From positions 1 through 64,000 of the forward strand of contig NZ_GG657898.1 in the NCBI RefSeq assembly GCF_000156355.1: a stretch of 64,000 bases of DNA, given 5' to 3'. This DNA comes from Methylophaga thiooxydans DMS010 (GTDB lineage Bacteria > Pseudomonadota > Gammaproteobacteria > Nitrosococcales > Methylophagaceae). A program made the position numbers and the translations under genes. Position 1 is the first letter of the stretch; every line of letters begins with the position of its first letter. Positions 174 to 37,835 of this stretch are shown piece by piece. Under the pieces are notes generated by a model. The model did no database searches. It worked only from the letters and a program-made list of their open reading frames with translations, and was not told where the DNA came from.

Positions 174-992
174 TTAGTGACGACGACCACTCCAAACAAC
201 TCGCCCAATAATCGAAAGCTCGTTCTGCAAATCAAAATCCAGTGATATCTCAAAAGGCTCATAAGCTGGATTATCACTGGTAACCTTTAACCGCTGACTT
301 GGTAGGCGCTGTAGCCGTTTAACTAGTAATGACTCACCCATTCTGATTACATAGATGCCGTCACGTTTAGCAACGTTGTCAGTGTGATCAACGAGTATAA
401 CGTCGCCTGGACGCAATGCAGGCTCCATGCTCTCACCTTCTACATAAATCAGATATAAATTAGCTGGGCTGCTGTGTAGCTCGTTATATATCCATTCTTT
501 TTTGAATATAAGTGCATCAGTTTCCTCTTCCTCGTGAATGACATAACCGTTGCCAGCTGATGCTTTTACATCAAACAGTGGGATGTGGGCGAATGTTTCC
601 ATAATGCTACCAGTTCCTGCTGAATAGTCTTTGATGCTCGATCCCACTTCTTCGTTGGAAGTGGGATCGACTTGCCCCACTTTAGATTTTCGATCCCGCT
701 TTTCATAAGTTTCTGATTCGTTTGAATTTCTATGTGTTGATGATGAATTATCATCAACATCTAAGTGGGATCGAGTTGGAAAGGTTTCGTTCCCCGTCAG
801 CACGTAATACGAATTAAACCCAAGCCCTAATATTTTTTCTAAATAAATAGCATCAGGGCTACGTTCACCTTTTTCATATTTGGCTTGTGACTGCCTTGTG
901 ATTCCAACAAAGTCAGCAACATCCTGCTGGGTTAAGCGTAGACGCTTACGCTCCTCTAGTATTCTGCCGCCAATGTAAACTAATGATTCCAT
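174..992 (-). CDS. LexA-like phage repressor (Mu c analogue, S24 peptidase)
   Basis: This is a 272-aa lysogeny repressor read away from the early genes. Residues ~8-65 form a Cro/CI-type helix-turn-helix (LTQQDVADFVGITRQSQAKY). Residues ~72-132 are a polar linker. Residues ~135-268 are a LexA/UmuD-type S24 domain with an Ala-Gly bond at 146-147, a catalytic Ser188 in GESMEP and Lys225 in LLVKRL. In this family RecA-stimulated self-cleavage at Ala-Gly lifts repression, so SOS induction is likely. Classical Mu c is not a LexA-type protease, but many Mu-like phages carry this form. The start is supported by the divergent early promoter region just beyond it. The linker DNA has unusual inverted repeats (separate entry). 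Confidence 0.9.
   Translation of the reverse strand: MESLVYIGGRILEERKRLRLTQQDVADFVGITRQSQAKYEKGERSPDAIYLEKILGLGFNSYYVLTGNETFPTRSHLDVDDNSSSTHRNSNESETYEKRDRKSKVGQVDPTSNEEVGSSIKDYSAGTGSIMETFAHIPLFDVKASAGNGYVIHEEEETDALIFKKEWIYNELHSSPANLYLIYVEGESMEPALRPGDVILVDHTDNVAKRDGIYVIRMGESLLVKRLQRLPSQRLKVTSDNPAYEPFEISLDFDLQNELSIIGRVVWSGRRH
638..774. repeat. Inverted and dispersed repeats inside the repressor linker
   Basis: Positions 638-650 (TCGATCCCACTTC) and 658-670 form a perfect 13-bp inverted repeat with a 7-nt loop. Further copies of the same motif lie at 690-701 (one mismatch) and 763-774 (AAGTGGGATCGA). A second perfect 10-bp inverted repeat lies at 735-744/750-759 (TGTTGATGAT and its complement). 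All of this falls in the non-conserved protein linker, so selection may act on DNA or RNA. Every copy of the first motif contains GATC. Confidence 0.8.
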
Positions 993-1001
993 TACAAGCC
1001 C

Positions 1002-1030
1002 TTGACAATGTTATTTTATGTGTACATAAT
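1002..1030 (+). promoter_or_regulatory. Probable early promoter
   Basis: A TTGACA box (1002-1007) is followed after exactly 17 nt by CATAAT (1025-1030), a near-consensus sigma-70 promoter directed at the Ner-like gene and the transposition operon. It lies in the repressor/ner divergent gap and overlaps the operator-like palindrome at 1016-1029, as expected for a repressor-controlled early promoter. Confidence 0.75.
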
Positions 1031-1064
1031 TTTTGCAGGTGTTATGTTTTGTTTGCATTTATGT
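1016..1064. promoter_or_regulatory. Operator-like repeats between repressor and early genes
   Basis: A dyad TTATGT-GT-ACATAA (1016-1029) overlaps the early -10 box. Two further TTATGT half-sites follow at 1042-1047 and 1059-1064. Repeated half-sites in the c/ner gap are where Mu-type repressors and Ner bind. Which protein uses these sites cannot be told from sequence. Confidence 0.55.
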
Positions 1065-1097
1065 AAACGCTTATATATTTAATTACGGATTGTAACA

Positions 1098-1382
1098 ATG
1101 AACTACAAGCAAATACATCAAGCATTGAAAGCCAAAGGTCTTTCTTGGTTAGTCGCTGGTGAAGTAATTGGTTGCACTCATCAGCATGTAATGAATGTTT
1201 GTGCAAGACGAGCGGAAAGTTTAAGAGTTGCACGATCAATATCCGTGCTAATCGAGAAAGATATTGCAGCAGTTTTTCCGGATATTCCCCGCTATCAGTC
1301 TGATGTAAAAACTGATCGCCAAGCCAAAATTGATCAAGCAAAAGCGCGTCTGGCAGAAGCCGGTCTTGCTGAGAGCGCCTAA
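1098..1382 (+). CDS. Ner-like / BcepMu gp16-type DNA-binding regulator
   Basis: This 94-aa protein is the first rightward early gene. It has a compact helix-turn-helix N-terminus (residues ~5-60, with WLVAGEVIGCTHQHVMNVCA) and a charged helical tail. It resembles phage-associated proteins of the BcepMu gp16/Ner group, which bind the early/repressor control region and damp both promoters. Its position, first behind the early promoter and divergent from the repressor, matches ner of Mu. It converges stop-to-stop with the leftward gene at 1383-1835. Confidence 0.75.
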   Translation: MNYKQIHQALKAKGLSWLVAGEVIGCTHQHVMNVCARRAESLRVARSISVLIEKDIAAVFPDIPRYQSDVKTDRQAKIDQAKARLAEAGLAESA

Positions 1383-1835
1383 TCATGGTTGATAACTATC
1401 CGCATCAAGAGCACTTACATCCGCAAAAAGCACGCGCCCACAAAGCAGTTCAAACCAACGGCGATTCCAGTTCGGCGGCACAAGGTAAGTATCGGCTGGA
1501 TGAGTGCGCTTCAACGTCGCAATCAAACTTTTTAGTTGATAAAGACGGAATGCCAGTTTCTCCTGGGTTTGGTGATCCAGATCGCCAATCTGCTTACAAA
1601 GCGTCGCGGATGAAGGCGGCAATACGTTTTCAACAACTTGCCAAGCAACAGTCTCAGCGAGTTGTGGAAGTTCCTCTGAATTGTCCGGTTCACGTATGTC
1701 CGATTTGTCAACTTTCAATGCTTTTAAAAAAGCTGATAGCTCGGATAAAAGCATGGTCGATGAAATGATGATGAATCCATCATTCTGCCCGTGTAAATAC
1801 GCGGCACTGACGGGTGCTGGTCTGGTTGTTTTCAC
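1383..1835 (-). CDS. Leftward early-region protein of unknown function
   Basis: This 150-aa reading frame starts at a GTG preceded by AGGAGATAACAAA, a good Shine-Dalgarno. Its stop abuts that of the Ner-like gene. The protein looks globular, with helical stretches (residues ~25-55 and ~85-110) and a conserved-looking VPPNWNRRWFELLCGRVLF segment. No family is recognised. The opposite-strand ORF over the same DNA is low in structure and lacks a ribosome site, so the leftward one is preferred. A gene opposed to the early operon in this spot is unusual for Mu-type phages. It may be expressed in the lysogen. Confidence 0.6.
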   Translation of the reverse strand: MKTTRPAPVSAAYLHGQNDGFIIISSTMLLSELSAFLKALKVDKSDIREPDNSEELPQLAETVAWQVVENVLPPSSATLCKQIGDLDHQTQEKLAFRLYQLKSLIATLKRTHPADTYLVPPNWNRRWFELLCGRVLFADVSALDADSYQP

Positions 1836-1925
1836 TTTGTTATCTCCTGTTTGGTTAAAACGCAGAACCAGCCTATCCCGTGCAGTACTGCCGCAACAAT
1901 CAATAAATTTGGAAGTGGTGTTGTG

Positions 1926-2420
1926 ATGAGAATTCCAAAAAGTAAGGTGGCTTGGAAACGCATCCAGCCGAACAATATAAAAGACGCGCTGCGGCTTAAT
2001 AAAGAGTACGCCAGACAGTTCAAAAGGCTAACTGTTCCAGCTATCGCTGAACTGATGGCTGTCAGTGAAGACCGCTTATACAAATGGCTCTCTACTGGTG
2101 ATATGCCAGTCAGTTTTATCCCGGCATATGAGCATATCTGTGAGATGGATTATGTCACCCAATATCTGGGTTACCGAAGTAACAAGCTGATGATTCAAAT
2201 CCCCACAGGGAAAAAAGTGGATGAACTAGGTTTAGCCGAACTACAGCAGCTTTCTGCAGATGCAATGAGTTTGCTAATCAAGTTTTATCGTGAGGGTGAG
2301 TCGGTAGATATCCTTACTTCAGCGCTCACTCGACTGTTAGCTGGCGTGGCATACCACAGAGAAAATGTTATCTCTCAGAGTCAGCCAGGTCTAGATTTTG
2401 AGGGCGGTGAAGATGACTGA
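1926..2420 (+). CDS. Early phage protein upstream of transposase, unknown function
   Basis: The 164-aa frame is read from ATG 1926, with GGAAG about 12 nt upstream. An earlier TTG at 1851 has no ribosome site. Residues ~30-55 (LTVPAIAELMAVSEDRLYKWL) look like a helix-turn-helix, suggesting DNA binding. The stop overlaps the transposase start (ATGACTGA), indicating translational coupling. Similar small HTH proteins precede the A gene in several Mu-like phages. The function is unknown. Confidence 0.7.
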   Translation: MRIPKSKVAWKRIQPNNIKDALRLNKEYARQFKRLTVPAIAELMAVSEDRLYKWLSTGDMPVSFIPAYEHICEMDYVTQYLGYRSNKLMIQIPTGKKVDELGLAELQQLSADAMSLLIKFYREGESVDILTSALTRLLAGVAYHRENVISQSQPGLDFEGGEDD

Positions 2421-4581
2421 ACAAAACAGGGAATGGTTCACAGCAACTGAATTAGCAAACAAACCAGGTCTTCCAAAGTACAAGCGTGGCGTTAATCAGC
2501 AGGCCTCAAAACAAGGCTGGAATACAAGGCAAGTAAAAGTAAGAGGTGGATCAGCAAATGAATACCACCTTTCCAGCCTGCCAGTAGAAACTCAGGCCGC
2601 GTTGATAAAACAACACCTGCCGACCCCAGTTAAGAGCAGCTCGGAAAGCACTGAATTTAGCTACGATCCTCAAGCATTATGGCAGCACTATGACAACAAG
2701 CCACAAAAACAAAAGGACGCAGCTCAGAACAAACTCAACCTGCTTTTGCAGGTCATGGCTCTGACAGAAAACGGTGGCGCCACACTTAAGAATGCCTTCT
2801 TACTGGTGGCTGATCAAAACGACATTAGTGAACGCACCATGCAAGGCTGGTATCACGGTACCAAGAGCAAGAAAGGGGTGAAATTCTATGCTCGTCAAGA
2901 CTGGTTAGCCGCGCTGGTACCCGGCTTTGTTGGCCGAACGGTCACAGCAGATATGGATACTGAGGCTTGGGAATTTTACAAAGCCGATTACCTTCGCCTG
3001 GAGCAGCCAGAGTTCGAAGCCTGTTACTACCGACTACAACGTACTGCAGCCGAACAAGGCTGGAAAATCCCCAGCAAAAAAACACTGGAACGTCGCATCA
3101 AAGCCATACCGCTGGCAACCCGCGTTTATCTACGTGAAGGTGAAGCCGGTTTGATCAAACTGTTTCCTGCCCAACAGCGAACAGTCCAAGAGCTACATGC
3201 GCTTGAGTGGATCAATGGTGATGGCTACCAACACAACGTGTTTGTTCTATTGCCAAATGGCGATGTAACGCGCATGAAAACGTGGTTCTGGCAGGACGTC
3301 TACAGCCGCAAAATACTGGCTTACCGCGTCGATGAATCAGAAAACACCGACTCAATCCGAGCCAGTTTTGGCGATGTTGTGGATCAGTTCGGCATACCCG
3401 AACACGTCACTATTGATAACACCCGCGCTGCAGCCAATAAATGGATGACCGGTGGCGTTAAAAACCGCTATCGCTTCACCGTAAAAGAAGATGATCCACT
3501 CGGCCTATTCCCTACGCTCGGTATCAAAGTGCACTGGACATCAGTGATTGGCGGCAAAGGACACGGTCAGGCTAAACCTGTCGAACGTGCCTTTGGTGTT
3601 GGTGGTCTTGGTGAATATCTGGACAAGCATCCTAAGTTTGAAGGTGCCTATACCGGCCCAAACCCAATGGCCAAGCCAGAAAACTACGCCAAAAAAGCGG
3701 TACCCATTGAAACGTTCCTAGCAGTACTGGAACAAGAAATCATTGCTTGGAATGCCAAACCGGCTCGACGCACTGAAATCTGCAACGGCACAAAAAGTTT
3801 TGATCAAGCTTTCACCGAAAGCTATCAAACCGCCGTTATCAAAACAGCTAACCAAGAACAACGTCGCATGTGGCTGCTGATGGCTGAAGCCATCAAAGTG
3901 CAGAAAGATGGATCATTTAATCTTGATGCCGGATCAGCCACAGGACAAGGCAAAAACCGCTACCACGCGCCAGCGTTGCTCGACTTTGCAGGCCAGAAGA
4001 TTACCGTTCGTTTTGACCCTCAAGCGCTGCATGAAATCGTCTATGCCTACACCTTAGATAATCGCTATATCGGTGAGGCGCAATGTATTGAAGCTACTGG
4101 GTTTGGTGATACTGAAGCGGCTCGAAGCTTCAACAAGCATCGCACTCGCTTTATCAAGGCCACCAAGCTGGCAGCGAAAGCCGAAGTCGCGATGGATGCA
4201 ATGGAAGTGGCAAGTCGCCTGCCTTTGCAGCCACAGCCTGAAGTCGCCAACCCGAAAGTGGTCAGACCACTTCGCCCAGCGCCAGAACTAGGCCGACACA
4301 TACCGCAGCCACAACTAACTGACGAACAAAAACAGGATCTGGCTACATTCCAAGCCGAGTTCCAACAGCCACAAGAGCCTGCAGCACAAATCATAAGAAA
4401 TGATGACCCCAGAGCGCGCTACAAGCGTTGGGTCAATTTAGACCGTCGGTTGCGAGAAGGGAGTCAACTCTCAGCAGCTGATCAGAAATTCTGGGCGATG
4501 TACCAGAAAGGCGATGAGTTCCGCTTTATGAGCGAGTTCAGCGCTGACTTTGAGAGCTTCGACGAAACTGTCGAGGCATAA
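2413..4581 (+). CDS. MuA-type DDE transposase
   Basis: This is a 722-aa phage transposase. It has an N-terminal winged-helix Mu-type DNA-binding region (residues ~3-60), site-binding domains (~70-250), a DDE/integrase-fold core, and a C-terminal MuB/ClpX-interacting type region. The catalytic triad reads D270 (NGDGYQHNVF), D335 (TIDNTR) and E391 (KPVERAFG), almost the same spacing as D269/D336/E392 of MuA. The core also carries the Mu-like AANKWMTGG and GHGQAKPVERAF motifs. ATG 2413 follows GAGGGCGGTGAAG and overlaps the preceding stop. It would bind the GATC-containing end repeats and perform strand transfer with MuB. It looks complete. Confidence 0.97.
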   Translation: MTEQNREWFTATELANKPGLPKYKRGVNQQASKQGWNTRQVKVRGGSANEYHLSSLPVETQAALIKQHLPTPVKSSSESTEFSYDPQALWQHYDNKPQKQKDAAQNKLNLLLQVMALTENGGATLKNAFLLVADQNDISERTMQGWYHGTKSKKGVKFYARQDWLAALVPGFVGRTVTADMDTEAWEFYKADYLRLEQPEFEACYYRLQRTAAEQGWKIPSKKTLERRIKAIPLATRVYLREGEAGLIKLFPAQQRTVQELHALEWINGDGYQHNVFVLLPNGDVTRMKTWFWQDVYSRKILAYRVDESENTDSIRASFGDVVDQFGIPEHVTIDNTRAAANKWMTGGVKNRYRFTVKEDDPLGLFPTLGIKVHWTSVIGGKGHGQAKPVERAFGVGGLGEYLDKHPKFEGAYTGPNPMAKPENYAKKAVPIETFLAVLEQEIIAWNAKPARRTEICNGTKSFDQAFTESYQTAVIKTANQEQRRMWLLMAEAIKVQKDGSFNLDAGSATGQGKNRYHAPALLDFAGQKITVRFDPQALHEIVYAYTLDNRYIGEAQCIEATGFGDTEAARSFNKHRTRFIKATKLAAKAEVAMDAMEVASRLPLQPQPEVANPKVVRPLRPAPELGRHIPQPQLTDEQKQDLATFQAEFQQPQEPAAQIIRNDDPRARYKRWVNLDRRLREGSQLSAADQKFWAMYQKGDEFRFMSEFSADFESFDETVEA

Positions 4582-4589
4582 AAAAACAA

Positions 4590-4607
4590 ACCCGCTGGCA
4601 GGCGGGT
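4590..4607 (+). other. Small hairpin between A and B genes
   Basis: ACCCGC (4590-4595) pairs with GCGGGT (4602-4607) across a 6-nt loop, immediately after the transposase stop. There is no U-run, so it is not a convincing terminator. It may tune A/B expression or mRNA stability. Confidence 0.45.
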
Positions 4608-4631
4608 AAGTAAAACGTGATGAGGTAAATA

Positions 4632-5396
4632 ATGACAACAAATCAAAACGTGGTCAACTTGGGAGACAGAGTCGAAGCCTCTGTCACCACGGCACCACTG
4701 AAAAACGTCATGCTCTGTACACGATTGCTGGAACAAGCGATGAATCGCCCAGCACATCTACCAGGTATGGTCACTTTCTTTGGCCCGAGTGGCTGGGGTA
4801 AATCGTTTGCTGCAGCTTATGCAGCGAATAAATACCGCGCTTACTACGTTGAATGCAAAAGCACCTGGACAAAAAAAGCGCTGCTCCTTTCCATTCTCAA
4901 AGAAATGGGCATCCAGCCAGATAAGACCAACTATGACATGGTCGAGCAAATCAGTCAGCAGCTGGCGCTGAGTGGTCTGCCGCTCATCATCGATGAGATG
5001 GATCACATCGTCGAAAAGAAAGCCGTCGAAGTAGTGCGTGACATTTATGAAGGATCAAACGCTGCCATCCTGCTGATCGGTGAAGAGAAGCTCCCGACCA
5101 AGCTGCTCAAGTGGGAACGGTTCCACAATCGAATGCTGGCTTGGCAAGGCGCTCAACCTGCCGATCTGGAAGACACACGACAACTGTCCCAACTTTACTG
5201 CCCGGACATCACCATTGCTGATGACCTGCTCGAACGCATCCAGCGTGAAAGCATGGGCGTCGCCCGTCGAATCTGCGTCAATCTCAACCAAGTTCAGCAA
5301 GCCGCCTACTCAGCTGGTACCGACCAAATCGACGTCAAACTCTGGGGTAACCGTCCCCTCTATACCGGCGACGCACCCAGGAGGAAGGTTAAATGA
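4632..5396 (+). CDS. MuB-type ATP-dependent target-capture protein
   Basis: This 254-aa AAA+ ATPase has Walker A GPSGWGKS (residues 51-58) and Walker B LPLIIDEMD (~120-128). It lies directly after the transposase. In Mu, B binds target DNA, stimulates A and provides target immunity. This protein is shorter than Mu B (312 aa) and starts almost at the ATPase domain, so the N-terminal HTH domain of Mu B is missing or reduced, as in the D3112/BcepMu type. Its stop overlaps the next start (ATGA). Confidence 0.93.
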   Translation: MTTNQNVVNLGDRVEASVTTAPLKNVMLCTRLLEQAMNRPAHLPGMVTFFGPSGWGKSFAAAYAANKYRAYYVECKSTWTKKALLLSILKEMGIQPDKTNYDMVEQISQQLALSGLPLIIDEMDHIVEKKAVEVVRDIYEGSNAAILLIGEEKLPTKLLKWERFHNRMLAWQGAQPADLEDTRQLSQLYCPDITIADDLLERIQRESMGVARRICVNLNQVQQAAYSAGTDQIDVKLWGNRPLYTGDAPRRKVK

Positions 5397-6004
5397 CACA
5401 GCCTGTTCATATCACAAGAGCAAACGGCAAGCTGTCAGGTAGAGATGCCTGCTGGCAAGCCATACGTGAATTGAAAGTGTTTTCTTTACTTGACCTGGAA
5501 GCACACACCAGTGATCACAAACAGCTGAATGAAGTGAATCGCCGAACAGCCAGAACCTACGTGATAGGGCTGGAAGGTGCTGGCTATCTGGAACGCACCA
5601 CCAAGCGCATGGGCGGTGCCATTGTCTGGAGGCTGACTCGTGATGTCGGTGTGAATGCACCTCGCGTCAACCGCAAAGGTGACCACGTCACTGGTGGCGA
5701 GAGCCGTGAACAGATGTGGCGAACCATGCGAATTCTGAGTGATTTCAGTTGGCGTGATTTGGTGGCATCAGCCTCTACGGAAGAAACACCTATCGAACCG
5801 AACACTGCCAAGGATTACATCACCTTTCTGGCTAAGGCGAATTATCTCAAAGAGATAATCCCAGCCAACCATGGTGGTGGTCTGGCGCGATACAAACTAT
5901 TACCCGCGATGAATACCGGTCCAAAGCCGCCGATGATTCAACGCATTAAACAAGTCTTTGATCCCAATTTAAACAAGGTCGTATGGCCAAAGGATGGTGA
6001 GTAA
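5393..6004 (+). CDS. Early phage protein with two winged-helix-like halves
   Basis: The 203-aa protein has two similar segments (~15-80 and ~105-170), each with a helical LDLEAHT/RDLVASAST-type core followed by a turn and a YL(E/K) strand, suggesting tandem winged helices. Such proteins are common after the B gene of Mu-like prophages but have no assigned role. The start overlaps the B stop (ATGA). DNA binding is inferred. Confidence 0.75.
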   Translation: MTQPVHITRANGKLSGRDACWQAIRELKVFSLLDLEAHTSDHKQLNEVNRRTARTYVIGLEGAGYLERTTKRMGGAIVWRLTRDVGVNAPRVNRKGDHVTGGESREQMWRTMRILSDFSWRDLVASASTEETPIEPNTAKDYITFLAKANYLKEIIPANHGGGLARYKLLPAMNTGPKPPMIQRIKQVFDPNLNKVVWPKDGE

Positions 6005-6225
6005 TGGATGAAGCGACAGTAGACGTAATTCAACAATTAATGGCATGGCACCAGAAACGAGTTGATGAATTGCAGCTGATAGTGGATCAAAAAGGTGCCT
6101 CTATCAAAATCGGTGAAGAGATTGAAATAACCGATCCGGAGGTGCTCAAAGGCGTTCATTTAGGCGTGAAGATTAGTTTGTCACTGCTTGGCAAGTTACC
6201 CATTTCATTAAAGGAAGGTGAGTAA
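6004..6225 (+). CDS. Small conserved early phage protein, unknown
   Basis: The 73-aa protein has an N-terminal amphipathic helix and an acidic middle. It starts at a TAATG overlap with the previous gene and its stop overlaps csrA by one base. No motif is recognised. Confidence 0.65.
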
Positions 6226-6404
6226 TGCTGATTTTAACAAGACGTGTGGGCGAAGCCCTGATTATCGGTGATGACGTTGTCGTGAATGTGCTTGGTACCA
6301 AAGGTAATCAAGTCCGGATCGGGGTTGAAGCCCCAAAAGATGTCTCTGTTCATCGTGAAGAAATTTATAACCGCATTCAGAAAGAAAAGGATGACAACAA
6401 ATGA
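6225..6404 (+). CDS. csrA: Phage-encoded CsrA/RsmA RNA-binding regulator
   Basis: The 59-aa product begins [20 protein letters not shown] and continues with [20 protein letters not shown]. Apart from a handful of substitutions it matches enterobacterial CsrA and keeps the RNA-contact residues L4, R6, R7 and R44. CsrA dimers bind GGA motifs in mRNA leaders and control translation or stability. Here it sits inside the early operon, coupled by TAATG to the gene before and by ATGA to the gene after, so it is a true phage gene. The leader AAGGAAGGTGAGTA contains a GGA and is a possible autoregulatory site. The role could be host metabolic takeover or timing of phage mRNA translation. Confidence 0.95.
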
Positions 6405-6733
6405 GCGACTGGAAACAAGTACTCAAAACCGAATGTGAGAAAACATCACAAGCCAAGGTGGCCGCTGTTCTCAGACAGAATGATGGCTTTCCTTCACCAA
6501 CCGTGATTAACCAGGTCATCAAGAGTAAATACCCCGGCAGAACTGACCGACTGCAAGCACTCATTGAAGGCAAGTTTATGTCCGGCAGTGTGCAATGCCC
6601 GGTGGTTGGTGCTATCCCCAGCGACCAATGCATTGAATACCAAAGCCGCCCGTATGCAGCAACAAACCCGACACGCATTCAACTTTATAGAGCCTGCCGT
6701 GGCGGCTGTGAACACAGCAAAATTGGAGCCTAA
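6401..6733 (+). CDS. Small HTH-type phage regulator with Cys-containing tail
   Basis: This 110-aa protein has an N-terminal segment (~5-60) with [20 protein letters not shown], resembling the helix-turn-helix of small Mu-like phage regulators. The C-terminal part holds four Cys ([17 protein letters not shown]) that could bind a metal. It is coupled to csrA by ATGA. The function is inferred only. Confidence 0.65.
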
Positions 6734-6735
6734 TC

Positions 6736-7005
6736 ATGAACAAGAATTTGGGTAACGACATCATCAGCAAAAAAGTAGAAGACGTTCGCCACTGCTTAGC
6801 AGAACTAGCACGACGTGGCCTCACCATTACCGATATCAACATCGGTGAAGCCAGAAAGCCGACCATCACCATCGTCGGCTACAACGACAGTCCAGGTGGA
6901 CTTAAGGGCGGCACAAAAACCCGCATTAAAACCGGCCTACGTCGTCTCGAAACCTACGCCACAGAAGTCAGCGGCTGCCAGGTGCAGTGGAAAGTTGTGG
7001 CTTAA
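6736..7005 (+). CDS. Hypothetical early phage protein
   Basis: The 89-aa basic protein follows the previous gene by 2 nt. The central strand-rich stretch (ITDINIGEARKPTITIVGYN) is typical of a small alpha/beta fold. No motif allows a function call. Confidence 0.65.
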   Translation: MNKNLGNDIISKKVEDVRHCLAELARRGLTITDINIGEARKPTITIVGYNDSPGGLKGGTKTRIKTGLRRLETYATEVSGCQVQWKVVA

Positions 7006-7018
7006 ACAGGAGTAACCC

Positions 7019-7636
7019 ATGAATACAGCTATCAATACAGAGCAACACAAGGTGAACGCACAAGGTCACCTTGTACCCATTAGCAAAATCAAACAAATCG
7101 ATCTGGATCGTGATGATCTTATCGAAGAACTGTTTGGTAAGGCCGAGTTGCTGCGAGAGCAGATGGTCGCCTTCAAAGCTCAGGCGATGAATGACGTTTA
7201 TGCCTTCGTCGAGCTTGTTGCAGAAAAATACGATGCCAAGCTCGGTGGCAAAAAAGGCAATATCAGCCTCACCAGCTATGACGGTAAACGCCAGATTCGC
7301 ATTCAAATGGCCGAGCTGTTGCACTTCGATGAGCGTGCTGAAGCAGCTAAATCCCTGATTGATGAATGCATTCAAGAATGGTCAGAAGGCAGCAACGACA
7401 ATATCAAAGCCCTGGTCGATCACGCCTTCAAAACCAACACTGAAGGCCAGCTTAGTGCTGCCCGAATCCTCGGACTGCTGCGGCTGGAGATTGACGATCA
7501 CAAATGGAAGCAAGCCATGGAGGCGCTGAAAGATTCGATGCAAATCACTGGCTCCAGCGCCTATGTGCGTTTCTATTACCGCCCGACCACCGAGAGCAAG
7601 TTTCAGAATCTGGCTCTCGATATGGCTGCTCTGTGA
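7019..7636 (+). CDS. DUF3164-family phage protein
   Basis: The 205-aa protein shows the DUF3164 pattern common in Mu-like and other transposable phages: an N-terminal VPISKIKQIDLDRDDLI, a central NISLTSYDGKRQIRI strand pair and a long helical C-terminus. It is preceded by AGGAGTAACCC. Members lie in early regions between B and gemA. The biochemical role is unknown. Confidence 0.85.
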   Translation: MNTAINTEQHKVNAQGHLVPISKIKQIDLDRDDLIEELFGKAELLREQMVAFKAQAMNDVYAFVELVAEKYDAKLGGKKGNISLTSYDGKRQIRIQMAELLHFDERAEAAKSLIDECIQEWSEGSNDNIKALVDHAFKTNTEGQLSAARILGLLRLEIDDHKWKQAMEALKDSMQITGSSAYVRFYYRPTTESKFQNLALDMAAL

Positions 7637-37565: not shown

Positions 37566-37781
37566 ATGTCTGGTTTTGTTTCTGTTGAGGTCGAAGGGAA
37601 GCTCTATGAGTCTGAGTACCATGAAGTTGGTGGTGTGGTTCGGGTTTATGGTGATCTAGGTGACCCTCATAAGCCAGAGGTCGAGTTCACCACTCTTGGA
37701 GGTATGAAGCCAGACCAAGTCGCTAGGATTTTGCTGAGACGTTTGGTTAAGCGAGGAGTAGTTTCGCCAACTGACGATTAA
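37566..37781 (+). CDS. Small accessory protein, unknown
   Basis: The 71-aa product is read from ATG 37566 with GGAG at 37555-37558, 7 nt upstream. A further-upstream TTG at 37554 is rejected. It has a beta-rich N-terminus and a C-terminal helix (PDQVARILLRRLVKRG). No family recognised. It is the last gene of the prophage. Confidence 0.65.
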   Translation: MSGFVSVEVEGKLYESEYHEVGGVVRVYGDLGDPHKPEVEFTTLGGMKPDQVARILLRRLVKRGVVSPTDD

Positions 37782-37786
37782 ACTAC

Positions 37787-37835
37787 AGATCGCAATTCAT
37801 GTGGCGAGAGATCGCAATTCATGTGGCGGCCTACA
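37787..37835. repeat. Right-end transposase sites and prophage boundary
   Basis: Two identical 20-bp repeats (AGATCGCAATTCATGTGGCG) at 37787-37806 and 37809-37828 have a 22-bp period, about two helix turns. Read from the end inward, the sequence begins TGTAGGCCGCC. They match, inverted, the left sites at 111-166. The CA at 37834-37835 is the likely cleavage end, followed by the host radA frame. Each repeat holds one GATC. The exact boundary base and the 5-bp target duplication (perhaps GCGGA) cannot be confirmed without the left junction. Confidence 0.8.

Follow-up and report, generated by a model that had tools for sequence, protein, structure and literature searches.

A csrA gene in a fixed slot among the early genes of a Mu-like Methylophaga prophage lineage

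The csrA Gene and Its Surroundings

The window analyzed here is a stretch of 64,000 nucleotides from Methylophaga thiooxydans DMS010 (contig NZ_GG657898.1, positions 1 to 64,000), and its first part is occupied by a Mu-like prophage. An open reading frame (ORF) at 6225–6404 of the plus strand, among the early genes of this prophage, encodes a CsrA protein of 59 amino acids and contains no internal stops. The product matched the Pfam CsrA profile PF02599 (E 6.3e-26, 53 of 53 profile positions, a score of 90.5 bits with the cut-off at 27) and the PHROG family phrog_9500, "CsrA-like regulator" (E 6e-33). The residues L4, R6, R7, V42, H43, R44, E45 and I47, which we take to be the RNA-contact positions, were all intact; a first-pass annotation of the same DNA had pointed to a 59-residue phage CsrA with L4, R6, R7 and R44, in agreement with this result. 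Structure prediction was carried out on monomers, and the low-confidence model of the phage CsrA (predicted local distance difference test, pLDDT, 70.8) had solved CsrA structures as its top Foldseek matches (E 2.9e-6). By profile, contact residues and fold, the product of 6225–6404 is a member of the CsrA/RsmA family (PF02599).

Coupling of csrA to phage genes on both sides, also claimed by the first-pass annotation, was confirmed: the TAA of ORF 6004–6225 ends in the A of the csrA ATG (TAATG), and the csrA TGA shares bases with the ATG of ORF 6401–6733 (ATGA). The early-operon setting proposed there was found as well, with a repressor gene on the minus strand followed on the plus strand by a CII-like gene, MuA, MuB, a regulator gene, ORF 6004 and csrA. 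The order of the genes corresponds to an early lytic operon, from which csrA would be transcribed. The features concerned are the following:

1–37835, plus strand: Mu-like prophage of 37.84 kb, delimited by flank divergence points and 5-bp duplications; 8 left-end bases precede window base 1
174–992, minus strand: CI-like repressor, divergent to the early operon (phrog_4, 4.3e-48)
1002–1030, plus strand: candidate early promoter TTGACA-17-CATAAT (11 of 12 consensus positions matched)
2398–4581, plus strand: MuA-type transposase (phrog_310, 9.7e-178; DDE_2, 1.5e-101)
4632–5396, plus strand: MuB-type transposition ATPase (phrog_296, 3.8e-66; AAA_22)
5393–6004, plus strand: phage transcriptional regulator family (phrog_2030, 8.8e-61), the gene found upstream in all sister phages
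6004–6225, plus strand: small ORF of 73 amino acids coupled 5' of csrA (phrog_12368, 2.6e-23; weakly the Mu Gam-like phrog_6755, 6e-6)
6225–6404, plus strand: csrA, phage CsrA of 59 amino acids (PF02599, phrog_9500, Foldseek of the predicted monomer)
6401–6733, plus strand: gene for 110 amino acids coupled 3' of csrA, predicted helical N-terminus (phrog_23446 / phrog_2119, unknown)
7019–7636, plus strand: DUF3164 gene, downstream border of the csrA slot (PF11363, 2.4e-77)

The region 850–7100 contained 6 promoter-like sites, as compared with 6.1 in shuffled sequences, and the site at 1002–1030 is therefore a candidate only. One further plus-strand promoter-like site, a weaker one at 1052, was present up to position 7100.

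Conservation of csrA in the Sister Phages

Relatives of the window MuA included two Methylophaga metagenome-assembled genomes, with 90% and 85% identity. Ten loci were obtained from two scans with MuA: L117, which is the phage of the window itself, and nine others, which represent six distinct phages. Five of these sisters, with MuA identities of 67–90%, carry csrA: L114, L115, L118 (the same phage as L035), L119/L122/L123, and L120. The gene is missing from one remoter relative (MuA 54%) that was found in two collections (L116, Oceanospirillum; L121). L049 (MuA 70%) is a sixth sister with csrA; as it was identified by the scan for csrA itself, it is not independent evidence of presence.

The first-pass annotation had suggested a search of related Mu-like phages for the gene at this position; in all six distinct csrA-bearing sisters csrA lies in the same slot, after the counterpart of regulator 5393. 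A pseudogene state in the sisters was looked for and did not occur, csrA being intact in 6/6. ORF 6004 had no match in the sister phages; L114 has a different ORF at its place, and the regulator gene of L035 and L115 is immediately followed by csrA, with the same Shine-Dalgarno sequence. In L120 an extra stretch is inserted between csrA and the counterpart of 6401. The CsrA of L120 (L120:3926-4228) is 100 residues long, has a tail with several Cys and His residues, and carries D in place of H43.

The ratios of nonsynonymous to synonymous substitution rates (dN/dS), from which those with non-computable dS were left out, were 0.034, 0.088 and 0.070 for csrA in comparison with L035, L114 and L115, respectively, 0.074, 0.052 and 0.065 for MuA, and 0.085, 0.065 and 0.085 for MuB. 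For csrA and these three nearest sisters dS was 0.76–1.13 and dN 0.04–0.08; with the distant sisters the csrA ratio was 0.053 (L049), 0.067 (L119) and 0.247 (L120). Because csrA is intact in all six sisters and its dN/dS to the three nearest lies in the MuA/MuB range, it is regarded as a selected core gene of the lineage, and the substitution pattern indicates that it is kept by purifying selection in this Mu-like lineage. A gene held in one place while its synonymous sites are near saturation is evidently worth keeping, and early lytic development is the stage of interest.

The nearest relatives of the phage CsrA were Methylophaga chromosomal and phage CsrA proteins. A tree was built on 56 columns from 126 CsrA proteins, 94 of them different, with one locus kept where a phage or genome had duplicates; 61 of its 91 inner branches were open, so that by this tree the seven lineage copies may have one origin or several. 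The host-like protein of L114 prompted the idea that its csrA was a recent replacement by a host gene, which is not favoured: the L114 csrA DNA is 83.6–86.1% identical to that of three sisters, as compared with 75.8–78.2% to three chromosomal genes.

Host csrA and the Prophage Insertions

The host, a Methylophaga, has its own chromosomal csrA, which follows an aspartokinase gene on contig C25. Divergence of the phage gene from this copy, for which the first-pass annotation had suggested a comparison, is evident: 50 of 59 residues are shared, and over 55 codons the DNA identity is 73.9% (dS not computable). A misassignment of the host gene to the phage is ruled out for 6225–6404 by this identity and by the separate location of the chromosomal csrA; the phage copy sits inside the prophage ends and flanks.

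The prophage belongs to a Mu-like transposable phage, with MuA and MuB homologues, a divergent repressor gene, TG...CA ends and 5-bp target duplications at varied sites. Contig comparison within the genome gave the ends as TGAATGAGGACAG...CTACA, the right end being at 37835. The left 300 bases had 11 matches in the assembly (G000), 7 of them with flanking DNA, and the right 300 bases had 7 full matches and 7 more cut at contig ends. Besides the window, prophage sequence was present on contigs C1, C2, C4, C5, C8, C10, C12, C13, C15, C16, C20, C22 and C24. From the seven left and seven right junctions it follows that the 12 csrA matches of this phage in the assembly are contig-end duplicates of seven insertions, a number counted from one assembly; the seven may or may not all be fixed in one cell. 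With all of them fixed, the prophage would make up about 265 kb in a genome of roughly 3 Mb.

Five 5-bp flanks were present on both sides (GGGAG, ACCAA, GCGGA, ATGGC and ATGGA). The flanks without a partner were CTGGG and a second ATGGA on the left, and GCGTG and TCCAG on the right; recombination between prophage copies is our guess for these. The C1 copy is identical to that of the window across 37,769 bases, the first difference of the C5 and C20 copies is a one-base length change, and the C24 copy is 99.99% identical over 35.4 kb. Direct repeats GATCGCAATTCATGTGGCG lie by the right end (37780–37835), with an inverted partner ATGAATTGCGATC by the left end (about 155–168); they are possible transposase binding sites.

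csrA in Other Genomes and Phages

A csrA match was found in 23 of the 24 genomes of the genus, and more than one in 12 of the 24. Twenty stretches around the further copies were fetched, and selected neighbours were scanned. One copy, in a transposable phage of a second type, lies five bases 3' of MuB (L160, G002), others lie near P2-type portal genes (L156, G023; L159, G015), where "P2-type" is a reading of the portal family, and another near a phage-type DNA methyltransferase gene (L157, G015). The CsrA proteins of these loci are 82–91% identical to that of the window. Less similarity was seen for the other extra copies, whose neighbours are integrase genes, a gene for a Tn/Mu-type transposase (L161) or genes without assignment. 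The genus provides several unrelated csrA-bearing prophages for comparison.

The csrA search of 50,697 phage records gave 86 matches, an upper count because at least two of the top three records are chromosome stretches filed as phages. Records L009 and L011 (CAKLQH020000034.1 and AGRM01000002.1), filed as phage, have chromosomal gene content around csrA. MuA relatives were present in 166 of the 50,697 records (the best 25 of 166 displayed). For Vibrio, the 30 csrA records and the 12 MuA records, all displayed, did not overlap; for Pseudomonas there were 45 csrA and 117 MuA records, compared among the matches listed only, so that overlap is possible. IMG/VR contributed 242 csrA-encoding stretches, of which the best 80 were kept and some contigs may be chromosomal.

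Homologues of csrA are annotated in many phage records, contrary to the earlier remark that so short a gene could be missed by automated gene calling, and the novelty attached to a phage csrA was overstated, as such genes have been published (PMC7366521, PMC8450108, PMC11879866). In these papers, csrA was found in 30 of 2,517 phages (Sobrero and Valverde 2020, PMC7366521), a phage RsmA was proposed to manipulate the host and CRISPR-Cas (Campa et al. 2021, PMC8450108), and knockdown of a csrA homologue in coliphage PTXU04 gave smaller plaques (the CRISPRi-ART paper, PMC11879866). The function of phage CsrA proteins is otherwise almost untested, this knockdown being the one result in the accessible text. 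The PTXU04 homologue, gp28, is a phage csrA product like that of the window, but it is divergent, belongs to a different phage type and was not among the csrA matches displayed at E 1e-3.

Like the published phage CsrA/RsmA proteins, that of the window is small and host-like, is encoded in a tailed-phage genome, has conserved RNA-binding residues and matches phrog_9500. Unlike them, it is encoded in a Mu-like transposable lineage, in a fixed slot flanked by the MuB region and the DUF3164 gene. The available parts of PMC7366521 and PMC8450108 name no transposable phage as a csrA carrier, and among the titles listed from the open-licence PubMed Central (PMC) literature none dealt with csrA in such a phage, although PMC8310193 and PMC9144972 contain both terms. 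Mu-type prophages have been reported in Methylophaga, with csrA unmentioned in the accessible portion of that paper (PMC5918138). In bacteriophage Mu, too, a single block comprises the early genes together with those for the repressor, transposase A and ATPase B, and its MuA is 48% identical over 86%, but Mu is without csrA at the sensitivity used, HelliStehle_Bas95 being the sole Escherichia record matched. Newer here are the transposable lineage with its fixed csrA slot, the presence of a host-like csrA in several Methylophaga prophages unrelated to each other, and the seven insertions of one prophage in one assembly.

Possible Role of the Phage CsrA

Given its family, its unchanged RNA-binding residues and its early position, the phage protein is most naturally read as an early-acting RNA-binding dimer. 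We consider it somewhat probable that it is a functional, host-derived CsrA of the early lytic phase, kept in the lineage and binding host mRNA leaders to favour phage growth. An ancestor of the Mu-like lineage would have acquired csrA from a Methylophaga-like host and retained it since. Transcription would start at the early promoter adjacent to the repressor gene and would include the transposition genes, so that csrA would be silent in quiet lysogens and expressed upon infection and induction. The CsrA dimer would then bind GGA-containing leaders of host mRNAs, supplement or override the host CsrA pool, and shift host metabolism and behaviour to a state favouring phage growth. The re-routing of host metabolism or motility that the first-pass annotation had raised is thus something we infer. 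RsmQ of plasmid pQBR103, which is reported to bind host RNAs and alter the host proteome (PMC9928087), is an analogue working as proposed for the phage CsrA, but it is plasmid-borne and has no tie to a lytic programme.

The alternative target raised earlier, phage mRNAs timed through GGA motifs, was not supported by either of two motif counts, both of which are crude and ignore RNA structure. Sites matching a 12-base CsrA consensus numbered 10, as compared with 13.8 ± 4.1 in shuffles, and A(N)GGA motifs in the 53 phage leaders averaged 0.98 per leader, as compared with 1.00 ± 0.16. Since CsrA motifs are not enriched in the phage leaders, host mRNAs are the likelier targets.

Several observations weigh against a host-directed role. 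Selection is less clear beyond the three nearest sisters, as seen in the dN/dS and the H43D change of L120. At least three A(N)GGA positions occur in 5 of the 53 phage leaders, that of ORF 6004, just 5' of csrA, included. With regard to control of the host Csr pool, neither CsrB nor FliW had a match in the host, where a divergent small RNA is possible. RsmZ and RsmY had no match in the host either; these absences say little, because neither reached the family cut-off in the control genomes.

A broader proposal, which we put forward tentatively and with more doubt than conviction, is that csrA is a recurrent takeover factor in methylotroph phages. A host-like csrA would have been captured separately by Methylophaga phages that are unrelated to one another, namely two transposable types, a P2-type and one with a methyltransferase gene; in the lineage studied here it would be a core early-lytic gene redirecting one-carbon metabolism via the host Csr regulon.

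It is rather unlikely that the phage CsrA chiefly regulates phage mRNAs, for instance by damping translation of the early operon to time development. The ORF 6004 leader has AAGGATG at the Shine-Dalgarno sequence and ATGGATG at the start codon, the Shine-Dalgarno sequence of ORF 6401, inside csrA, is AAAAGGATG in the window, L035, L115 and L049, and the five leaders with at least three A(N)GGA positions make autoregulation conceivable. However, neither motif count was above that of shuffles, the sisters lack ORF 6004, and a GGA within a Shine-Dalgarno sequence is expected regardless.

Repression of host defence, especially CRISPR-Cas, is improbable. Its basis is the proposal of phage RsmA as an anti-defence protein, RsmA being a repressor of CRISPR-Cas in Serratia according to Campa et al. 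(PMC8450108), and Cas1 was found in 6 of the 24 genomes of the genus, so that some hosts offer a target. Neither the present genome, which is 94.7% complete, nor G017 or G019, both with sister phages, had a Cas1 match, however, which leaves CRISPR repression without an evident local target; other defences were not searched.

We hold it to be quite improbable that csrA is a moron active in the lysogen, low prophage expression raising the CsrA dose and helping the host. The seven insertions would multiply such a dose, but they are a feature of one assembly, and csrA is buried in a repressed early operon with no strong plus-strand promoter-like site nearby. That csrA is a functionless, recently captured passenger, as its 84–91% identity to genus chromosomal CsrA proteins might suggest, is highly improbable and already largely refuted by the excess of dS over dN to the three nearest sisters and by the six intact copies.

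The Gene Downstream of csrA

The product of ORF 6401 showed 95–97% amino acid identity in the three nearest sisters, with 97% in L035 and L115, and among the early genes compared in these two phages it is the most conserved. Its predicted structure had no PDB match at E ≤ 0.001. The second-ranked structural match, a weak one (E 1.1) of its predicted helical N-terminus, was the N-terminal domain of MuB; because of this weak resemblance, and because MuB here has only 254 residues, a split MuB is conceivable.
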